DNA of 35,343 nt from Propionibacteriales bacterium (GTDB lineage: Bacteria; Actinomycetota; Actinomycetes; Propionibacteriales; Nocardioidaceae), in NCBI GenBank assembly GCA_009379735.1, contig WHTB01000010.1, forward strand, positions 1 to 35,343, read 5' to 3'. Below are positions 17,556 through 27,539 of the stretch, one piece after another. The position numbers and the translations under genes are program-made. Each line of letters starts with the position of its first letter. Positions within the stretch are counted from its first letter, which is position 1. The notes under the pieces are model-generated. The model saw only the letters and a list, made by a program, of their open reading frames with translations. It made no database searches and was not told where the DNA came from.

Positions 17556-17912
17556 GTGGCTGGTGGTAGCGCCATCCGGGGCAGCCGAGTAGGCGCCGGA
17601 CCGATGGGCGAGGCGGAGCGTGGTGACGCGGCACCGCGGGTGCAGGTGTCGTACTTCTGTGCCAACGCGCACGAGACGCAGCCGACCTTCGCCGTCGACG
17701 CACAGCTCCCCGATTCGTGGGACTGCCCACGCTGCGGCCTCCCCGCGAGCCGCGACGAGGAGAACCCGCCGCCGCCGCCGAAGATCGAGCCCTACAAGAC
17801 GCACCTCGCCTACGTGAAGGAACGCCGCTCCGACAAGGAGGCGCAGGAGATCCTCCAAGAGGCCCTGCAAACCCTCCGCGACAAGCGCAAGTCCGGCGAG
17901 ATCGTCTTCTGA
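17556..17912 (+). CDS. rbpA: RNA polymerase-binding protein RbpA
   Basis: RbpA binds the housekeeping sigma factor and stabilises open complexes; it is confined to actinobacteria. The 118-residue product begins AGGSAIRGSRVGAGPMGEAE, the conserved N-terminal tail that reaches into the polymerase cleft. The core carries Cys35, His39, Cys57 and Cys60 (CANAH, CPRC), which can bind zinc. The basic linker is PPKIEPYKTHLAYVKERRS (about 74-92), followed by the helical sigma-interaction domain. GTG 17556 has a GAGGAG site (17543-17548) seven bases upstream. The inserted repeat unit begins 30 bases after its stop. Confidence 0.96.
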   Translation: MAGGSAIRGSRVGAGPMGEAERGDAAPRVQVSYFCANAHETQPTFAVDAQLPDSWDCPRCGLPASRDEENPPPPPKIEPYKTHLAYVKERRSDKEAQEILQEALQTLRDKRKSGEIVF

Positions 17913-17942: not shown

Positions 17943-17972
17943 GTTTTTCTGGTACGGGGGCGCCCCGTTCCA
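17943..17972 (-). repeat. Left terminal inverted repeat of the 1.26-kb unit
   Basis: This is the reverse-oriented copy of the repeat whose core reads TGGAACGGGGCGCCCCCG, including the outer AGAAAAAC extension. Its centre GGGGCGCCCC is itself a perfect palindrome. Confidence 0.8.
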
Positions 17973-18002
17973 ATAGGTCTGGAACGGGGCGCCCCCGTAC
18001 CA
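17950..18002. terminator. Perfect 23-bp inverted repeat after rbpA
   Basis: Bases 17950-17972 are fully complementary to 17980-18002, with the seven-base loop ATAGGTC. It is formed by the left terminal repeat and a second, direct copy of the same unit. It would form a very stable hairpin in RNA from either strand and probably ends rbpA transcription. The only T-run (17944-17948) lies before the stem on the plus strand, so it is not a textbook intrinsic terminator. Confidence 0.6.
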
Positions 18003-18040
18003 ATCACAATTGGACCGTGCTCACCCAGCGGGCCGGTGAA

Positions 18041-19018
18041 TCAGCCAGTCGATTGTGCCGGCCGCCGGCGGACGATGATTTGAGGGACGGGCCGGGCAGC
18101 GCCCTGACGAAGTAACGCCTCGACCTCTCGGCAGAATTCGAGCGGTTCGGCGGCTATGTCGCCGGGTGCGATCTCGAGGATGAGGATGCCGTTTCGGTTG
18201 TAGCTGCGGTTGCGTCGCTGCGTCTTCTTGTACGGCTTCGGCGCCAAGTGGAACTCCATCGAGTCGATCTGGATCGCGACCGCGACGTCCTCGTAGTAGC
18301 CGTCGGGATCCCCGATGAACGCGCCGTCCTTCGTGTAGAGCGAAACGTTCCATTGGGGCTCGCGTACGCCATGCCTGCGTAGCGTGTCGCGTGCCCTCGC
18401 TTCGGCAACCGAGCGGATGCCGGCTTCGATCTCTGACATCACGATGCGCGAGAGTGCTGAGCGCTGTCGGGCAGTCTGTCGGATCTGTTCGGCGATCTCG
18501 CGGGGTGTGCAACGTCCGGATTGGACGACTTCGGCGACGATCGCCCGCACCCTGTCGAGGTTCTCCTCCCGGCGGCACGAATCGATGACCGCGCGAGGCA
18601 GGGGAGCGAGTGGCAGACCTCTGCTGAGTCGTGGTTCGGGGCGCAGGCGTGTCCGCTCGACCACGATGAAGCTGTGCGAGTTGCGCTGACAGTCATGCGG
18701 GACGAGCACATGTTCGCGGGCCGAGCCAGTCGCCGCCTTGACGCCGTACTCGGCGAGCGCGCTCATCCCCGTGAGCATGGCGCGATCGCCTGCGTAGCGC
18801 AGTGCGCCGATCCGTCGTTCACGCCGAGTCGGTGTGCCGCGGTGGGCAAGGACGACTCCGGGCAGTATGCGCTGCCACCTGCCGCTCGGCGCGATCCAGC
18901 TGCAGATGGTCGACTTGGCGAGGCCTAGGGCCGCTAGATCTGTATGCGTGGCGACGCGCTCACCTGAACGCAGCAATGCGTCGAGTGCGGCGAAGTCGGT
19001 GAACGTCCGTCGAGGCAT
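18041..19018 (-). CDS. AbiEi antitoxin-domain/DUF559-like protein in the repeat-bounded unit
   Basis: The 325-residue protein starts at ATG 19018 (MPRRTFTDFAALDALL); an in-frame ATG at 19081 would add 21 residues unlike the rest. No ribosome site is clear for either. Residues about 8-60 form a winged-helix-like region as in AbiEi-type antitoxins, and about 70-150 is the second AbiEi-like part (TGMSALAEYGV, ERTRLRPEP). The C-terminal third resembles DUF559/Vsr-type PD-(D/E)xK proteins: GDPDGYYED (236-244) then Q250-I-D252-S-MEFH. In relatives I know, position 250 is Glu (EVDS), so nuclease activity may be lost. No AbiEii toxin gene is adjacent. The sequence is visibly richer in A/T than neighbouring genes. 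Function unknown; a defence or regulatory role is inference. Confidence 0.72.
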   Translation of the reverse strand: MPRRTFTDFAALDALLRSGERVATHTDLAALGLAKSTICSWIAPSGRWQRILPGVVLAHRGTPTRRERRIGALRYAGDRAMLTGMSALAEYGVKAATGSAREHVLVPHDCQRNSHSFIVVERTRLRPEPRLSRGLPLAPLPRAVIDSCRREENLDRVRAIVAEVVQSGRCTPREIAEQIRQTARQRSALSRIVMSEIEAGIRSVAEARARDTLRRHGVREPQWNVSLYTKDGAFIGDPDGYYEDVAVAIQIDSMEFHLAPKPYKKTQRRNRSYNRNGILILEIAPGDIAAEPLEFCREVEALLRQGAARPVPQIIVRRRPAQSTG

Positions 19019-19145
19019 TCGACGACTCTGGCCCGGTTCGCGCGACCTCGGTGCATCCAGTCCCGGCCCTGTGGACAGCACTGCTGACGCGGCCGGCTGT
19101 GGACAATTTCCGGGCCGGTTCGGGCGAGTCCCGTACCACTGGGTT

Positions 19146-19205
19146 TGGAACGGGGCGCCCCCGTACCAATAGGTCTGGAACGGGGCGCCCCCGTGCCAGA
19201 AAAAC
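19146..19205 (+). repeat. Two tandem repeat copies, including the right terminal repeat
   Basis: Direct copies at 19146-19167 and 19176-19197 (core TGGAACGGGGCGCCCCCG) are joined by the eight-base spacer AATAGGTC. The second differs by one base (GTGCC for GTACC) and carries the AGAAAAAC outer end. A degenerate piece, CCCGTACCACTGGGTT, lies just before at about 19130-19145. The pgl stop codon begins six bases after the end. Confidence 0.85.
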
Positions 19206-19210
19206 GGGGG

Positions 19211-19990
19211 TCAGGTTGAGGGCATCTGGGCGAGGGCGGTGGGGAGCTCGGCGGCGGCGTCGTGGTCGAGCAGCCACAGCGTTTGGCGGGTGCCGGTCAC
19301 GCCGGCCGCGGGGACCTGCATCAGGCCGGCGCCGGACAAGGCGAGCCGGACCGCCTTGGCCTTGTCGGAGCCGGCGACCACGAACCACACCTCGCGCGCC
19401 TGGCGGAGCGTCGGCAGGGTCAGCGTGACCCGGGTCGGCGGCGGCTTGGGGGCGTGCCGGACGGCCGCGGCCGTCCGCTCGTCGTACAGCTCCGGCCGCT
19501 CCGGGAACAGCGACGCCACGTGGCCGTCCGGTCCCACGCCGAGGAGTACGACGTCGAAGACCGGCACCGGGCCGTGGTCCTCGGGCTGCGCCGCGGCCGC
19601 CAGCGCGTCGGCGTACGCGTCGGCGGCGGCATCCGGGCTCCCGGCGTACGGACCGCCGTCGGCGGGCATCGCGTGCACCCGCGCCGGGTCGAGGCGCAGC
19701 CGGTCGAGCAGCGCCGCCCGGGCCTGGGTCTCGTTGCGGTCGGCATGGCCGGGAGGCAGGAACCGCTCGTCGCCCCACCACAGCTCGACCCGTGACCAGT
19801 CGACGGCGTCGCGTGCCGGCATCGCCGCCAGCGCGGCGTACATCCGGGTCGCGATCGACCCGCCGGTCAACACCAGCGACGGCACCCGGCCGGTGCTCTG
19901 CACGTCCACCAGACGCGTGACCAGCCGGGCGGCCGCCGCCGCGGCCAGCAGGTCGGCGCCCCGGTGGGTCACCACGATCGGCGAGGTCAC
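19211..19990 (-). CDS. pgl: 6-phosphogluconolactonase
   Basis: Pgl hydrolyses 6-phosphoglucono-lactone, the step after G6PDH in the oxidative pentose phosphate pathway. The 259-residue product has the NagB-like sugar-phosphate signatures LVLTGGSIATRMYAAL, WSRVELWWGDERFLPPGHADRN and FDVVLLGVGPDGHVASLFP. GTG 19990 shares GTGA with the opcA stop. It is the last gene of the tkt-to-pgl run and converges on rbpA, with the repeat-bounded unit lying between. The longer frame upstream of 19990 is the shadow of opcA. Confidence 0.95.
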   Translation of the reverse strand: MTSPIVVTHRGADLLAAAAAARLVTRLVDVQSTGRVPSLVLTGGSIATRMYAALAAMPARDAVDWSRVELWWGDERFLPPGHADRNETQARAALLDRLRLDPARVHAMPADGGPYAGSPDAAADAYADALAAAAQPEDHGPVPVFDVVLLGVGPDGHVASLFPERPELYDERTAAAVRHAPKPPPTRVTLTLPTLRQAREVWFVVAGSDKAKAVRLALSGAGLMQVPAAGVTGTRQTLWLLDHDAAAELPTALAQMPST

Positions 19991-24084: not shown

Positions 24085-25205
24085 GCCTCGGCCCCCGTCG
24101 GAGCCGCGTCCTTCAGGGCCGTCGTGACGGTCTCGAGCAGCTCGGTCCAGGAGGCCTCGAACTTCTGCACGCCCTCCTCCTCGAGCACCTGGACGACGTC
24201 GTCGTACTCCACGCCCAGCGCGGCGAGCCGGTCGAACACGTCCTGTGCGTCGGCGTACTGCGTGCTCACGAGGTCGCCCTTCAGCTCGCCGTGGTCGGCG
24301 AACGCCTCGATGGTGCCTTCCGGCATCGTGTTGACGACATCAGCGACTACCAGCTCGGTGACGTACCTCGTGTCCGGCAGGTTGGGGTCCTTCACGGACG
24401 TCGACGCCCACAGCGGGCGCTGCTTGTGCGCACCCGCGGACTCGAGCGCCGCCCAGCGCGCACCGGTGAAGACCTTCTCGAAGCGCTGGTACGCGAGCCG
24501 CGCGTTTGCGATGGCCGCCTTGCTACGCAGCGCCGCCGCCTCGTCGGAGCCGACCTTGTCGAGCCGCTTGTCGACTTCGGTGTCGACCCGGCTGACGAAG
24601 AACGACGCCACTGAGTGGATCGTCGCGATGTCGTGGCCGTTCTCCTTGGCCTGCTCGAGCCCGCTCAGGAATGCCTCCATCACCTCGGAGTAGCGGTCGA
24701 GGGAGAAGATCAGCGTGACGTTGACGCTGATGCCCTCGGCCAGCGTCGCGGTGATCGCCGGCAGGCCGGCCTTGGTGGCCGGGATCTTCACGTACAGGTT
24801 GGGCCGGTCGATCATCCACGACAGGCCCTTGGCCTCGGCGATGGTCGCCTCGGTGTCGTGCGCCAGCCGCGGGTCGACCTCGATCGAGACGCGGCCGTCG
24901 ACACCGTCGCTCGCGTCATAGGCCGGTCGCATCACCTCGCAGCCCCAGCGCACGTCGAACGTCGTGATCATCCGCACCGCCTCGTCGACGCTGAGGTCAC
25001 GGACCGCGAGGTCGTGGATTTGCTCGGCGTAGTCGTCGGCGTCGGTGACCGCCTTGGCGAAGATCGTCGGGTTGGAGGTGACCCCGACGACGTGCTTGTC
25101 TTCGAGCAGCTGCTGGAGCTGGCCCGTGCGCAGCCGCTCGCGGGAGATGTCGTCGAGCCAGATGGACACGCCCGCTTCGGACAGCGCCTTCAGCCGATCG
25201 TTCAT
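24081..25205 (-). CDS. tal: Transaldolase
   Basis: Transaldolase moves a dihydroxyacetone unit between sugar phosphates. The 374-residue protein belongs to the long actinobacterial/cyanobacterial subfamily. The Schiff-base Lys140 lies in NLYVKIPAT, and the N-terminal [12 protein letters not shown] and [11 protein letters not shown] blocks are characteristic. ATG 25205 has AGAAGGG eight bases upstream. It follows tkt after 39 bases and overlaps pgi by four, so it is part of the same operon. Confidence 0.97.
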
Positions 25206-25244
25206 TGCTACGACCCTTCTCTGCGTGGACTACGTACGGCGTAC

Positions 25245-27425
25245 TCAGCCCTCGTCGGCCGGACCGACAGGACCGTGGGCGGAGGTGAAGACGGAGGCGG
25301 CCTTGCCGCCCAGCTCGGCGGCGGCGGCGATGCTGTCGCGAGCAGCCTGGGCCACCGCCTCGGCGGTCACCCCGAACTCGCGGTACACCGTCGCGAAGTC
25401 CGCGGATGCCCCGTAGTGGTCGATGCTGACGATCCGGCCGGCGTCGCCGACCACCTCGCGCCAGCCCTCGGCCACCCCGGCCTCGACGGACACCCGCGCC
25501 TTGACGGTCGGTGGGATCACCGCGTCGCGGTAGTCGGCGTCCTGCTCGTCGAACCACTCCTTGCACGGCATCGAGACGACCCGAGCCTGCACTCCGTCGG
25601 CGGCCAGGGCGGTCCGCGCCGCGACGGCGAGCTGCACCTCCGACCCCGTGCCCACGAGGACGACGTCGGGGTCGCCGTCCTCGGTGTCGAGGAGTACGTA
25701 GGCGCCCTTGGCGACTCCCTCGACGTCGGCGTACCCCTCCCTGCCGCGGGGGAACGTCGGGACGTTCTGCCGGGTGAGCGCCAGGCCGGCGGGCCGGTCG
25801 GTGTGCCCGAGCACGGTGCGCCAGGCGACGGTGGTCTCGTTGGCGTCGGCGGGCCGGACCACGTCGAGACCCGGGATCGCGCGCAGCGCAGCCAGGTGCT
25901 CGATCGGCTGGTGGGTCGGGCCGTCCTCGCCGAGGCCGATCGAGTCGTGCGTCCAGACGTACGTCACCGGCAGCTTCATCAGCGCCGCCAGCCGGACGGA
26001 CGGGCGCATGTAGTCGCTGAACACCAGGAACGTGCCGCCGTACGGCCTGGTCCCGCCGTGCAGCGCGATGCCGTTGAGGATCGAGCCCATGCCGTGCTCG
26101 CGGATGCCGAAGTGCAGGACCCGGCCGTACCAGTCGCCTGGCCACATCTTGGTGGCGTGCTCAGGCGGGACGAACGACGGCTCGCCCTTCGGCGTCGTGT
26201 TGTTGGACTCGGCCAGGTCGGCCGAGCCGCCCCACAGCTCGGGCAGCCCGGCGGCGATCGCGGACAGCACCTCGCCGCTCGCCTTGCGGGTCGCGATGCC
26301 CTTCTCGTCCGCGTCGAAGCTCGGCAGCGTCTCGGTCCAGCCGTCCGGGAGCCGGCGCTCACGCATCCGGTCGAACAAGTCGGCGCGGTCGCCGGCCGAC
26401 GCCCGCCAGGAGTCGTACCGGCCCTGCCACTCCTGCTGCTCCGCGGCACCGCGCTCGCGCAGCCCACGGGTGTGCGCGAGTACGTCGTCGGCGACCACGA
26501 AGCTCTGGTCCGGGTCGAAGCCGAGCACCTTCTTGGTGGCGGCGACCTCCTCGGCGCCGAGTGCCGATCCGTGCGCCTTGCCGGTGTTCTGCGCGTTGGG
26601 GGCGGGCCAGGCGATGATCGTCCGCAGCTGGATGAAGCTGGGCCGGCCGGTCTCGGCCCGGGCCGCCTGCAGCGCGTCCCAGAGGCCCTGCACGTCCTCC
26701 TCGTAGCCGTCGCCGTCGTTGGTCCAGTCGACCACCTGCACGTGCCAGCCGTACGCCGCGTAGCGCGCCGCGACGTCCTCGGTGAACGCGATCGTCGTGT
26801 CGTCCTCGATCGAGATCTTGTTGTCGTCGTAGAGCAGGGTGAGATTGCCGAGCCGCTGGTGGCCGGCGAGCGACGACGCCTCCGACGCCACGCCTTCTTG
26901 CAGGTCGCCGTCGCTGGCGATGCAGTAGATCTGGTGGTCGAACGGGCTGTCGCCCTCGGCGGCGTCCGGGTCGAGCAGGCCGCGCTCACGGCGGGCCGCC
27001 ATCGCCATGCCGACGGCGTTGCCGACGCCCTGGCCCAGCGGACCGGTCGTCGTCTCGATGCCCTTGGTGTGGCCGTGCTCGGGGTGACCGGGGGTCTGGC
27101 TGTTCCAGGTGCGCAGCGACTGCAGGTCGTCGAGCTCGAGCCCCCAACCGCCCAGGTAGAGCTGGATGTACTGGGTGAGACTCGAGTGTCCGGCGGACAG
27201 CACGAACCGGTCGCGGCCAGCCCAGTCGGGGTCGTCCGGGTTGTGCCGCATGAGCTTCTGGAAGAGCAGGTACGCGGCCGGCGCGAGGCTCATCGCCGTA
27301 CCCGGGTGGCCGTTGCCGACCTGCTCGACGGAATCCATCGCGAGCACCCGGATCGTGTCGACCGCACGCTGGTCGAGGTCGGTCCACGGCAGCGGAGTCG
27401 TGGCGGCTGGCTCGGCGATGCCCAC
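25245..27425 (-). CDS. tkt: Transketolase
   Basis: Transketolase transfers two-carbon units using thiamine diphosphate. The 726-residue product has catalytic and cofactor residues in [10 protein letters not shown] (His40), SAGHSS (His80), SDGDLQEG (ThDP/Mg motif, 171-178), FGIREHGMG (proton-relay Glu) and [19 protein letters not shown] 27425 has GAAGGG about eight bases upstream. It is the first gene of the tkt-tal-pgi-zwf-opcA-pgl run and is divergent from ctaB. The usual length is about 660-720, so this is slightly long at the N-terminus. Confidence 0.98.
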
Positions 27426-27457
27426 GGCGGTGAGCCCTTCTGTCAGGTCACGGGTCG

Positions 27458-27463
27458 GACAGG
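27458..27463 (-). promoter_or_regulatory. Candidate -10 element for the tkt operon
   Basis: On the minus strand TAGCGT matches TANNNT and would give a leader of about 25 bases that contains the GAAGGG ribosome site. No -35 is convincing, so the call is weak. Confidence 0.25.
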
Positions 27464-27533
27464 CACGACGCTACCGCCGCCACCCCAGCCGCTGCACCCT
27501 CGGGGCGGGTCGGACGACGCGGCTGTGCGGCAC

Positions 27534-27539
27534 TAGACT
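27534..27539 (+). promoter_or_regulatory. Candidate -10 element for ctaB
   Basis: TAGACT fits TANNNT, lies in the divergent tkt-ctaB gap and would give a leader of about 52 bases before GTG 27598, with GAGG at 27589-27592. Confidence 0.35.

Follow-up and report, generated by a model that had tools for sequence, protein, structure and literature searches.

An actinobacterial AbiEi-nuclease gene family is paired with its own hairpin repeats and may supply the enzyme of a REPIN-like system

Introduction

In a Propionibacteriales bacterium of the family Nocardioidaceae, a single gene lies between the convergent genes rbpA and pgl, enclosed on both sides by copies of one palindromic repeat. Does this arrangement mark a mobile unit, and does the enclosed protein act on the repeats around it? 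One point of comparison is provided by REPINs and RAYTs, in which dispersed hairpins share a genome with a resident enzyme gene (PMC3116915; PMC8266576); the RAYT enzyme is an HUH-type tyrosine transposase (Y1 family), and a GTAG tag is usual in the repeats that go with it (PMC8266576, PMC3733652). For CGTC-tagged and untagged REP-like palindromes no dedicated enzyme is known, and this absence has been described as an unsolved problem (PMC3733652). AbiEi antitoxins offer a second comparison: binding as monomers, they recognize paired inverted repeats of 23 bp within their own promoter (PMC7319586). Our search of the open-access literature turned up nothing that connects AbiEi/DUF559 genes with palindromes on their flanks.

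Results

We analyzed a window of 35,343 nucleotides, the whole of the stretch under study. An earlier note on this DNA had described a unit with inverted 30-bp ends, additional repeat copies inside each end, a sole gene of AbiEi-like, nuclease-fold type, and a fit that fills the entire rbpA-pgl gap, and the sequence bears out all of these points (Table 1). Read on opposite strands, 17943-17972 and 19176-19205 agree at 29 of 30 positions, and an extended match covers 35 nt at 91% identity. Exact TGGnACGGGGnnnCCCCGTnCCA half-sites occur at 17950-17972, 17980-18002, 19146-19168 and 19176-19198; against these four, 0.05 would be expected in the window by chance at up to three mismatches. Each end of the unit is a 53-bp hairpin in which a 7-bp spacer separates two palindromic half-sites of 23 bp each, and the two ends differ in half-site orientation: inverted on the left, where a perfect 23-bp stem is predicted, and direct on the right. 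The outer-arm motif TTGGACCG..CACCCAG, which adjoins the left hairpin on the side facing the gene, also occurs beside other hairpin copies in the genome. Elsewhere in the window (24291-27536), a simple gene caller favors long plus-strand ORFs that are possibly antisense to a real gene.

Table 1. Features of the hairpin-bounded unit and its neighbors, in window coordinates
Feature	Position	Strand	Basis
rbpA, convergent conserved left neighbor (stop at 17912)	17556..17912	+	Pfam RbpA, E=1.4e-41
TTTTTC tract, outer edge of left hairpin	17944..17949	+	
Left hairpin: two 23-bp half-sites in inverted orientation, ATAGGTC spacer; 30-bp period	17950..18002	+	
Outer-arm motif of the dispersed element (TTGGACCG..CACCCAG), inner side of left hairpin	18010..18034	+	
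Gene for a 325-aa protein with AbiEi-like DNA-binding domains and a Vsr/I-Bth0305I-type nuclease domain	18041..19018	-	PADLOC, AlphaFold, Foldseek
Degenerate third half-site adjoining right hairpin	19116..19138	+	Repeat family copy and inspection by eye
Right hairpin: two 23-bp half-sites in direct orientation, ATAGGTC spacer	19146..19198	+	
GAAAAA tract, outer edge of right hairpin	19199..19204	+	
pgl (6-phosphogluconolactonase), conserved right neighbor (stop at 19211)	19211..19990	-	ORF; directly after rbpA in many relatives

The ends of the unit belong to a dispersed family. The host genome holds about 44 hairpins of this kind, mostly single and nearly all intergenic, often 10-60 bp past a stop codon and in about half of cases between convergent genes; among the hairpins seen in this genome, only the pair in the window brackets a gene. 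Across 36 aligned copies the half-site is invariant except for its centre and two flanking positions, an invariance not forced by the collection pattern, which allowed up to two mismatches per half-site and leaves degenerate copies under-represented. The spacer consensus is NTAGGT(C/A). The orientation of the half-site centre flips freely (>< in 21 copies, << in 9, >> in 4 and <> in 2), TTTTTC or CTTTTC precedes 14 of the 36 oriented copies, GAAAA(A/C) follows 16 of them, and an additional inverted motif, CACTGGGCGGCTCCGGTCCA / TGGACCGGAGCCGCCCAGTG, accompanies some copies. The earlier note had pointed to a search with the 30-bp end in both the host and its relatives; this was fruitful in the host genome, and the half-site was found in 0 of the 58 relatives searched. 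Isolated hairpins at many gene ends, which that note had set against its own reading, do exist, together with matched pairs around the gene family.

Three further observations concern the hairpins of this genome. Contigs C171, C252, C300 and C438 start about 128-132 bp ahead of a hairpin, so that the repeats probably break the assembly and the copy number is a lower bound. A second, related subfamily has CGTCACGGGG-type half-sites and an ATAGGTT spacer (L102:2990-3012 on contig C471; L107:2987-3009 on contig C314). At L075:3021-3218 (contig C95), two hairpins lie within a 145-bp tandem duplication.

Pairing of gene and repeats is not peculiar to this locus. In relatives, similar and often self-complementary repeats stand on both sides of the homologous gene at most loci. 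When identical 300-bp flanks were taken for all called genes and pairs of at least 50 bits were counted, paired repeats were found at 16 of 20 family genes, drawn from several genera and families, versus 1 of 362 other genes at the same loci of the related genomes (Fisher p=1e-23). Among 80 loci from named Actinomycetota, at a 45-bit threshold, the corresponding counts were 37/69 and 1/417 (Fisher p=4e-35, a value that does not count independent events, as many of these loci are orthologous); the sole positive control adjoins a family gene and has that gene's repeat type. With a wider flank and a lower threshold, pairs were detected at 79 of 112 family genes. The 33 genes with no detectable pair include the host's second family gene (L080). 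The unit is one instance of a wider pattern, in which a gene and its own hairpins recur across many actinobacteria.

Within this pattern, each gene goes with a hairpin type of its own. In one genome (G038), no two of the family genes with paired repeats share a repeat. Similarity between proteins and similarity between their hairpins are correlated (Mantel rho 0.25, reached in 0 of 2000 permutations); hairpin similarity drops fast with protein distance, yet still tracks it. The tested hairpins are also dispersed in their own genomes. The repeat of the closest homologue in G038, which keeps the 30-bp period and the ATAGGT spacer, gave 196 candidates in a first look across that genome, and the hairpin of the homologue in G008 occurs at about 12 sites. 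Amycolatopsis regifaucium has 173 hairpin candidates, and most of the 40 copies scored are 100% identical over 57-60 nt to the copies that flank the gene; A. coloradensis and A. pittospori have diverged versions of this hairpin, and none was found in the one Pseudonocardia in which it was sought. The G038 genome also contains a MITE-like, non-coding element of about 490 bp in tens of copies (L235:5282-5776), bounded by the hairpins of the G038 gene unit, for which an Rfam search gave no match.

The 325-aa product combines an AbiEi-like N-terminal two thirds with a nuclease-like C-terminal domain. By sequence, the PADLOC AbiEi model matches it at E=4.6e-11, and PADLOC AbiEi models match 29 of 30 family members; Pfam gave matches below cut-off only, no NCBIfam model matches the family, and a PDB sequence search with the family profile returned nothing significant; known structures were matched by fold comparison only. 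The AlphaFold model (pLDDT 93.4) matches the AbiEi antitoxin (6y8q), Rv2827c (1zel) and I-Bth0305I (3r3p) in Foldseek. For the C-terminal domain against 3r3p, the catalytic domain of I-Bth0305I, the probability is 0.91, at a significance below that of the AbiEi and Rv2827c matches. Distant members in similar units reach the Pfam cut-offs for AbiEi_4 and MTES_1575. Neither PADLOC models nor Foldseek gave a transposase match. Residues E205, D238, D251 and H256 are conserved. Position 249 is E in most relatives and Q in the window protein and the G008 homologue, which makes the nuclease activity of the window protein itself uncertain. In seven close pairs of family genes dN/dS is 0.08-0.14, indicating purifying selection.

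Comparisons between relatives reveal both empty and re-used slots. The earlier note had suggested the rbpA-pgl junction of relatives as the place to seek empty sites, and these are indeed found: the gene is absent from about 15 of the 29 relatives' loci read. In G024 and G002 the same slot is occupied by other AbiEi/DUF559 genes, which share 59% identity and are bounded by their own inverted 61-62-bp repeats. Three of the gene-free junctions (L011 in G023, L015 in G003 and L019 in G010) carry other palindromic repeats that are genus-specific and may be solo hairpins belonging to other systems. In one genus (g27), a unit is present in two species and absent from the same site in three others, and homology stops no more than about 25 bp from the repeats. 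One of the three species that lack this unit carries another AbiEi-nuclease unit at the site.

Polymorphism was also examined in Rhodococcus; for G038, the comparison found no congener. R. jostii and R. wratislaviensis share unit flanks that are 93-94% identical, and homology ends at the hairpins; the genes in this slot are 74% identical in DNA, lie in opposite orientation and have unrelated hairpins. A solo hairpin present in R. jostii is absent in R. koreensis, and at another Rhodococcus junction a solo hairpin stands in place of a different one. No clear target-site duplication was evident at the polymorphic sites inspected, and no excision intermediate was seen. Nine Amycolatopsis loci share one common context, and within genera in-place inheritance of units is commoner than free hopping.

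Discussion

In our best reading, the unit houses the enzyme gene of a REPIN-like system whose hairpins are recognized, and probably spread, by an AbiEi/PD-(D/E)XK nuclease and not by an HUH transposase; we put the probability of this reading at roughly 60%. The comparisons show that the gene family goes with its own hairpin type, that several of these hairpins are dispersed, that slots are re-used or empty, and that the gene is under purifying selection; we infer binding, cutting and copying by this protein as follows. The AbiEi part would bind the half-sites, which is plausible because AbiEi antitoxins bind 23-bp inverted repeats (PMC7319586); the nuclease domain would nick or cut at the hairpin; and repair or replication would then copy the hairpin, or on rare occasions the gene together with both of its hairpins, into gaps between convergent genes. 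The earlier note had proposed, as one option, a mobile cassette with a passenger protein that acts on its repeats. This option is favored in part, by the cognate hairpins across genera, the re-use of slots and the empty sites. It needs amending in that the repeats are not simply the termini of one unit but a dispersed, REPIN-like population, and in that the unit is more often inherited in place.

Several points weigh against our reading. No pair was detected for 33 of the 112 family genes, the window protein carries Q in place of the usual E249, neither a clean target-site duplication nor an excision intermediate was seen, and the unit is mostly inherited in place within genera. Further, an association of gene and hairpin could also arise if the hairpins, and not the protein, drive movement.

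The main rival is a selfish gene that behaves like a homing endonuclease: the protein would cut a solo hairpin or an unoccupied slot, the gene would be copied in by repair, and the dispersed hairpins would be targets or by-products of repair. The likeness of the C-terminal domain to I-Bth0305I speaks for it, as do the re-occupation of single slots by different units (at rbpA-pgl, in g27 and in Rhodococcus) and the other palindromes in some relatives' empty rbpA-pgl slots. However, a homing gene interrupts a unique, conserved target, and here tens to hundreds of near-identical hairpins lie at unrelated sites, so that hairpin copying would be needed in addition to homing. We consider this explanation unlikely.

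It is very unlikely, in our judgment, that an unrelated enzyme (an HUH transposase of the IS200/RAYT type, or another IS) moves the hairpins and that the gene is cargo, even though the layout of the hairpins is REPIN-like and the host genome has a single Y1-type transposase ORF of IS200 size (contig C33:29765-30130). We found no hairpin of the window's family on contig C33, 7 of 8 unit-bearing genomes lack Y1_Tnp, and the hairpin type goes with the AbiEi-nuclease gene, not with the genome. The dependence on an outside enzyme that the earlier note had offered as one option is disfavored on the same grounds, and because the RAYT/IS200 enzyme is missing from those 7 genomes, the AbiEi-nuclease itself as propagator is the best reading.

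Still less probable is a toxin-antitoxin or phage-defense gene whose flanking hairpins serve as operators for AbiEi-style autoregulation. PADLOC AbiEi models do match the protein, and the promoter repeats bound by AbiEi antitoxins are of the same 23-bp length (PMC7319586), but no toxin gene is adjacent, the neighbors being rbpA and pgl, and autoregulation leaves unexplained the hairpins downstream of the gene and the dozens elsewhere. The least probable alternative, that ordinary transcription terminators at gene ends account for the hairpins and that these bracket the gene by coincidence, would fit their frequent position shortly after stop codons and between convergent genes, and we reject it because a T-tract before and an A-tract after the stem is the reverse of a bidirectional intrinsic terminator and because a terminator scan misses the hairpins; the 16/20 versus 1/362 enrichment around the gene family also speaks against it.

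Compared with known systems, the AbiEi-nuclease units come closest to REPINs and RAYTs in layout. Both have dispersed extragenic hairpins built from two inverted palindromic half-sites (the > < arrangement, in 21 of 36 copies here), a resident nuclease gene flanked by its own cognate repeats, distinct enzymes within one genome that each have their own repeat type, and inheritance mostly in place. Unlike in REPIN/RAYT systems, the enzyme here is a fusion of AbiEi with a PD-(D/E)XK/Vsr-like domain and not an HUH Y1 transposase, and the repeats have no GTAG tag; by reading of the copies, the half-site feet are TGG/CCA and the spacer is NTAGGTN. With the type IV antitoxin AbiEi of AbiE and with Rv2827c, the protein shares the fold of its N-terminal two thirds (a winged helix and a C-terminal domain), and with AbiEi it shares inverted repeats of 23 bp, which AbiEi binds (PMC7319586). 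By contrast with AbiE, no AbiEii nucleotidyltransferase toxin gene adjoins it, and it differs from AbiEi in its additional C-terminal nuclease domain and in repeats that lie on either flank of the gene as well as across the genome.

That C-terminal domain resembles Vsr-like/EDxHD homing endonucleases such as I-Bth0305I in fold; of the candidate acidic/His active-site residues, E205, D238, D251 and H256 are conserved and the common E249 is Q in the window protein. Unlike I-Bth0305I, the gene lies outside any intron or intein, interrupts no gene and has dispersed hairpins on its flanks. CGTC-tagged and untagged REP-like palindromes differ in that a candidate enzyme is here physically paired with the repeat, and classical insertion sequences and transposons have a transposase gene and terminal inverted repeats with a target-site duplication, where here the only gene is the AbiEi-nuclease and the polymorphic sites inspected showed no clear duplication. 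The system lacks a defining feature of each known family considered; functionally, it would be a counterpart of REPtrons.

More broadly, we see an even chance that mobile hairpin populations are widespread in actinobacteria with an AbiEi and PD-(D/E)XK (Vsr-like) fusion as their dedicated spreader, enzyme and hairpin diverging together, which would make them a REPtron analogue evolved independently of HUH transposases. The family is a candidate source of enzymes for REP-like palindromes that lack one, and it suggests a possible role for the common, uncharacterized AbiEi/DUF559 proteins of actinobacteria. It also offers a large natural set of enzyme-hairpin pairs that could be used for studies of specificity. 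If confirmed, the system would show that bacteria have evolved, a second time and independently, a means of keeping a domesticated population of mobile hairpins.
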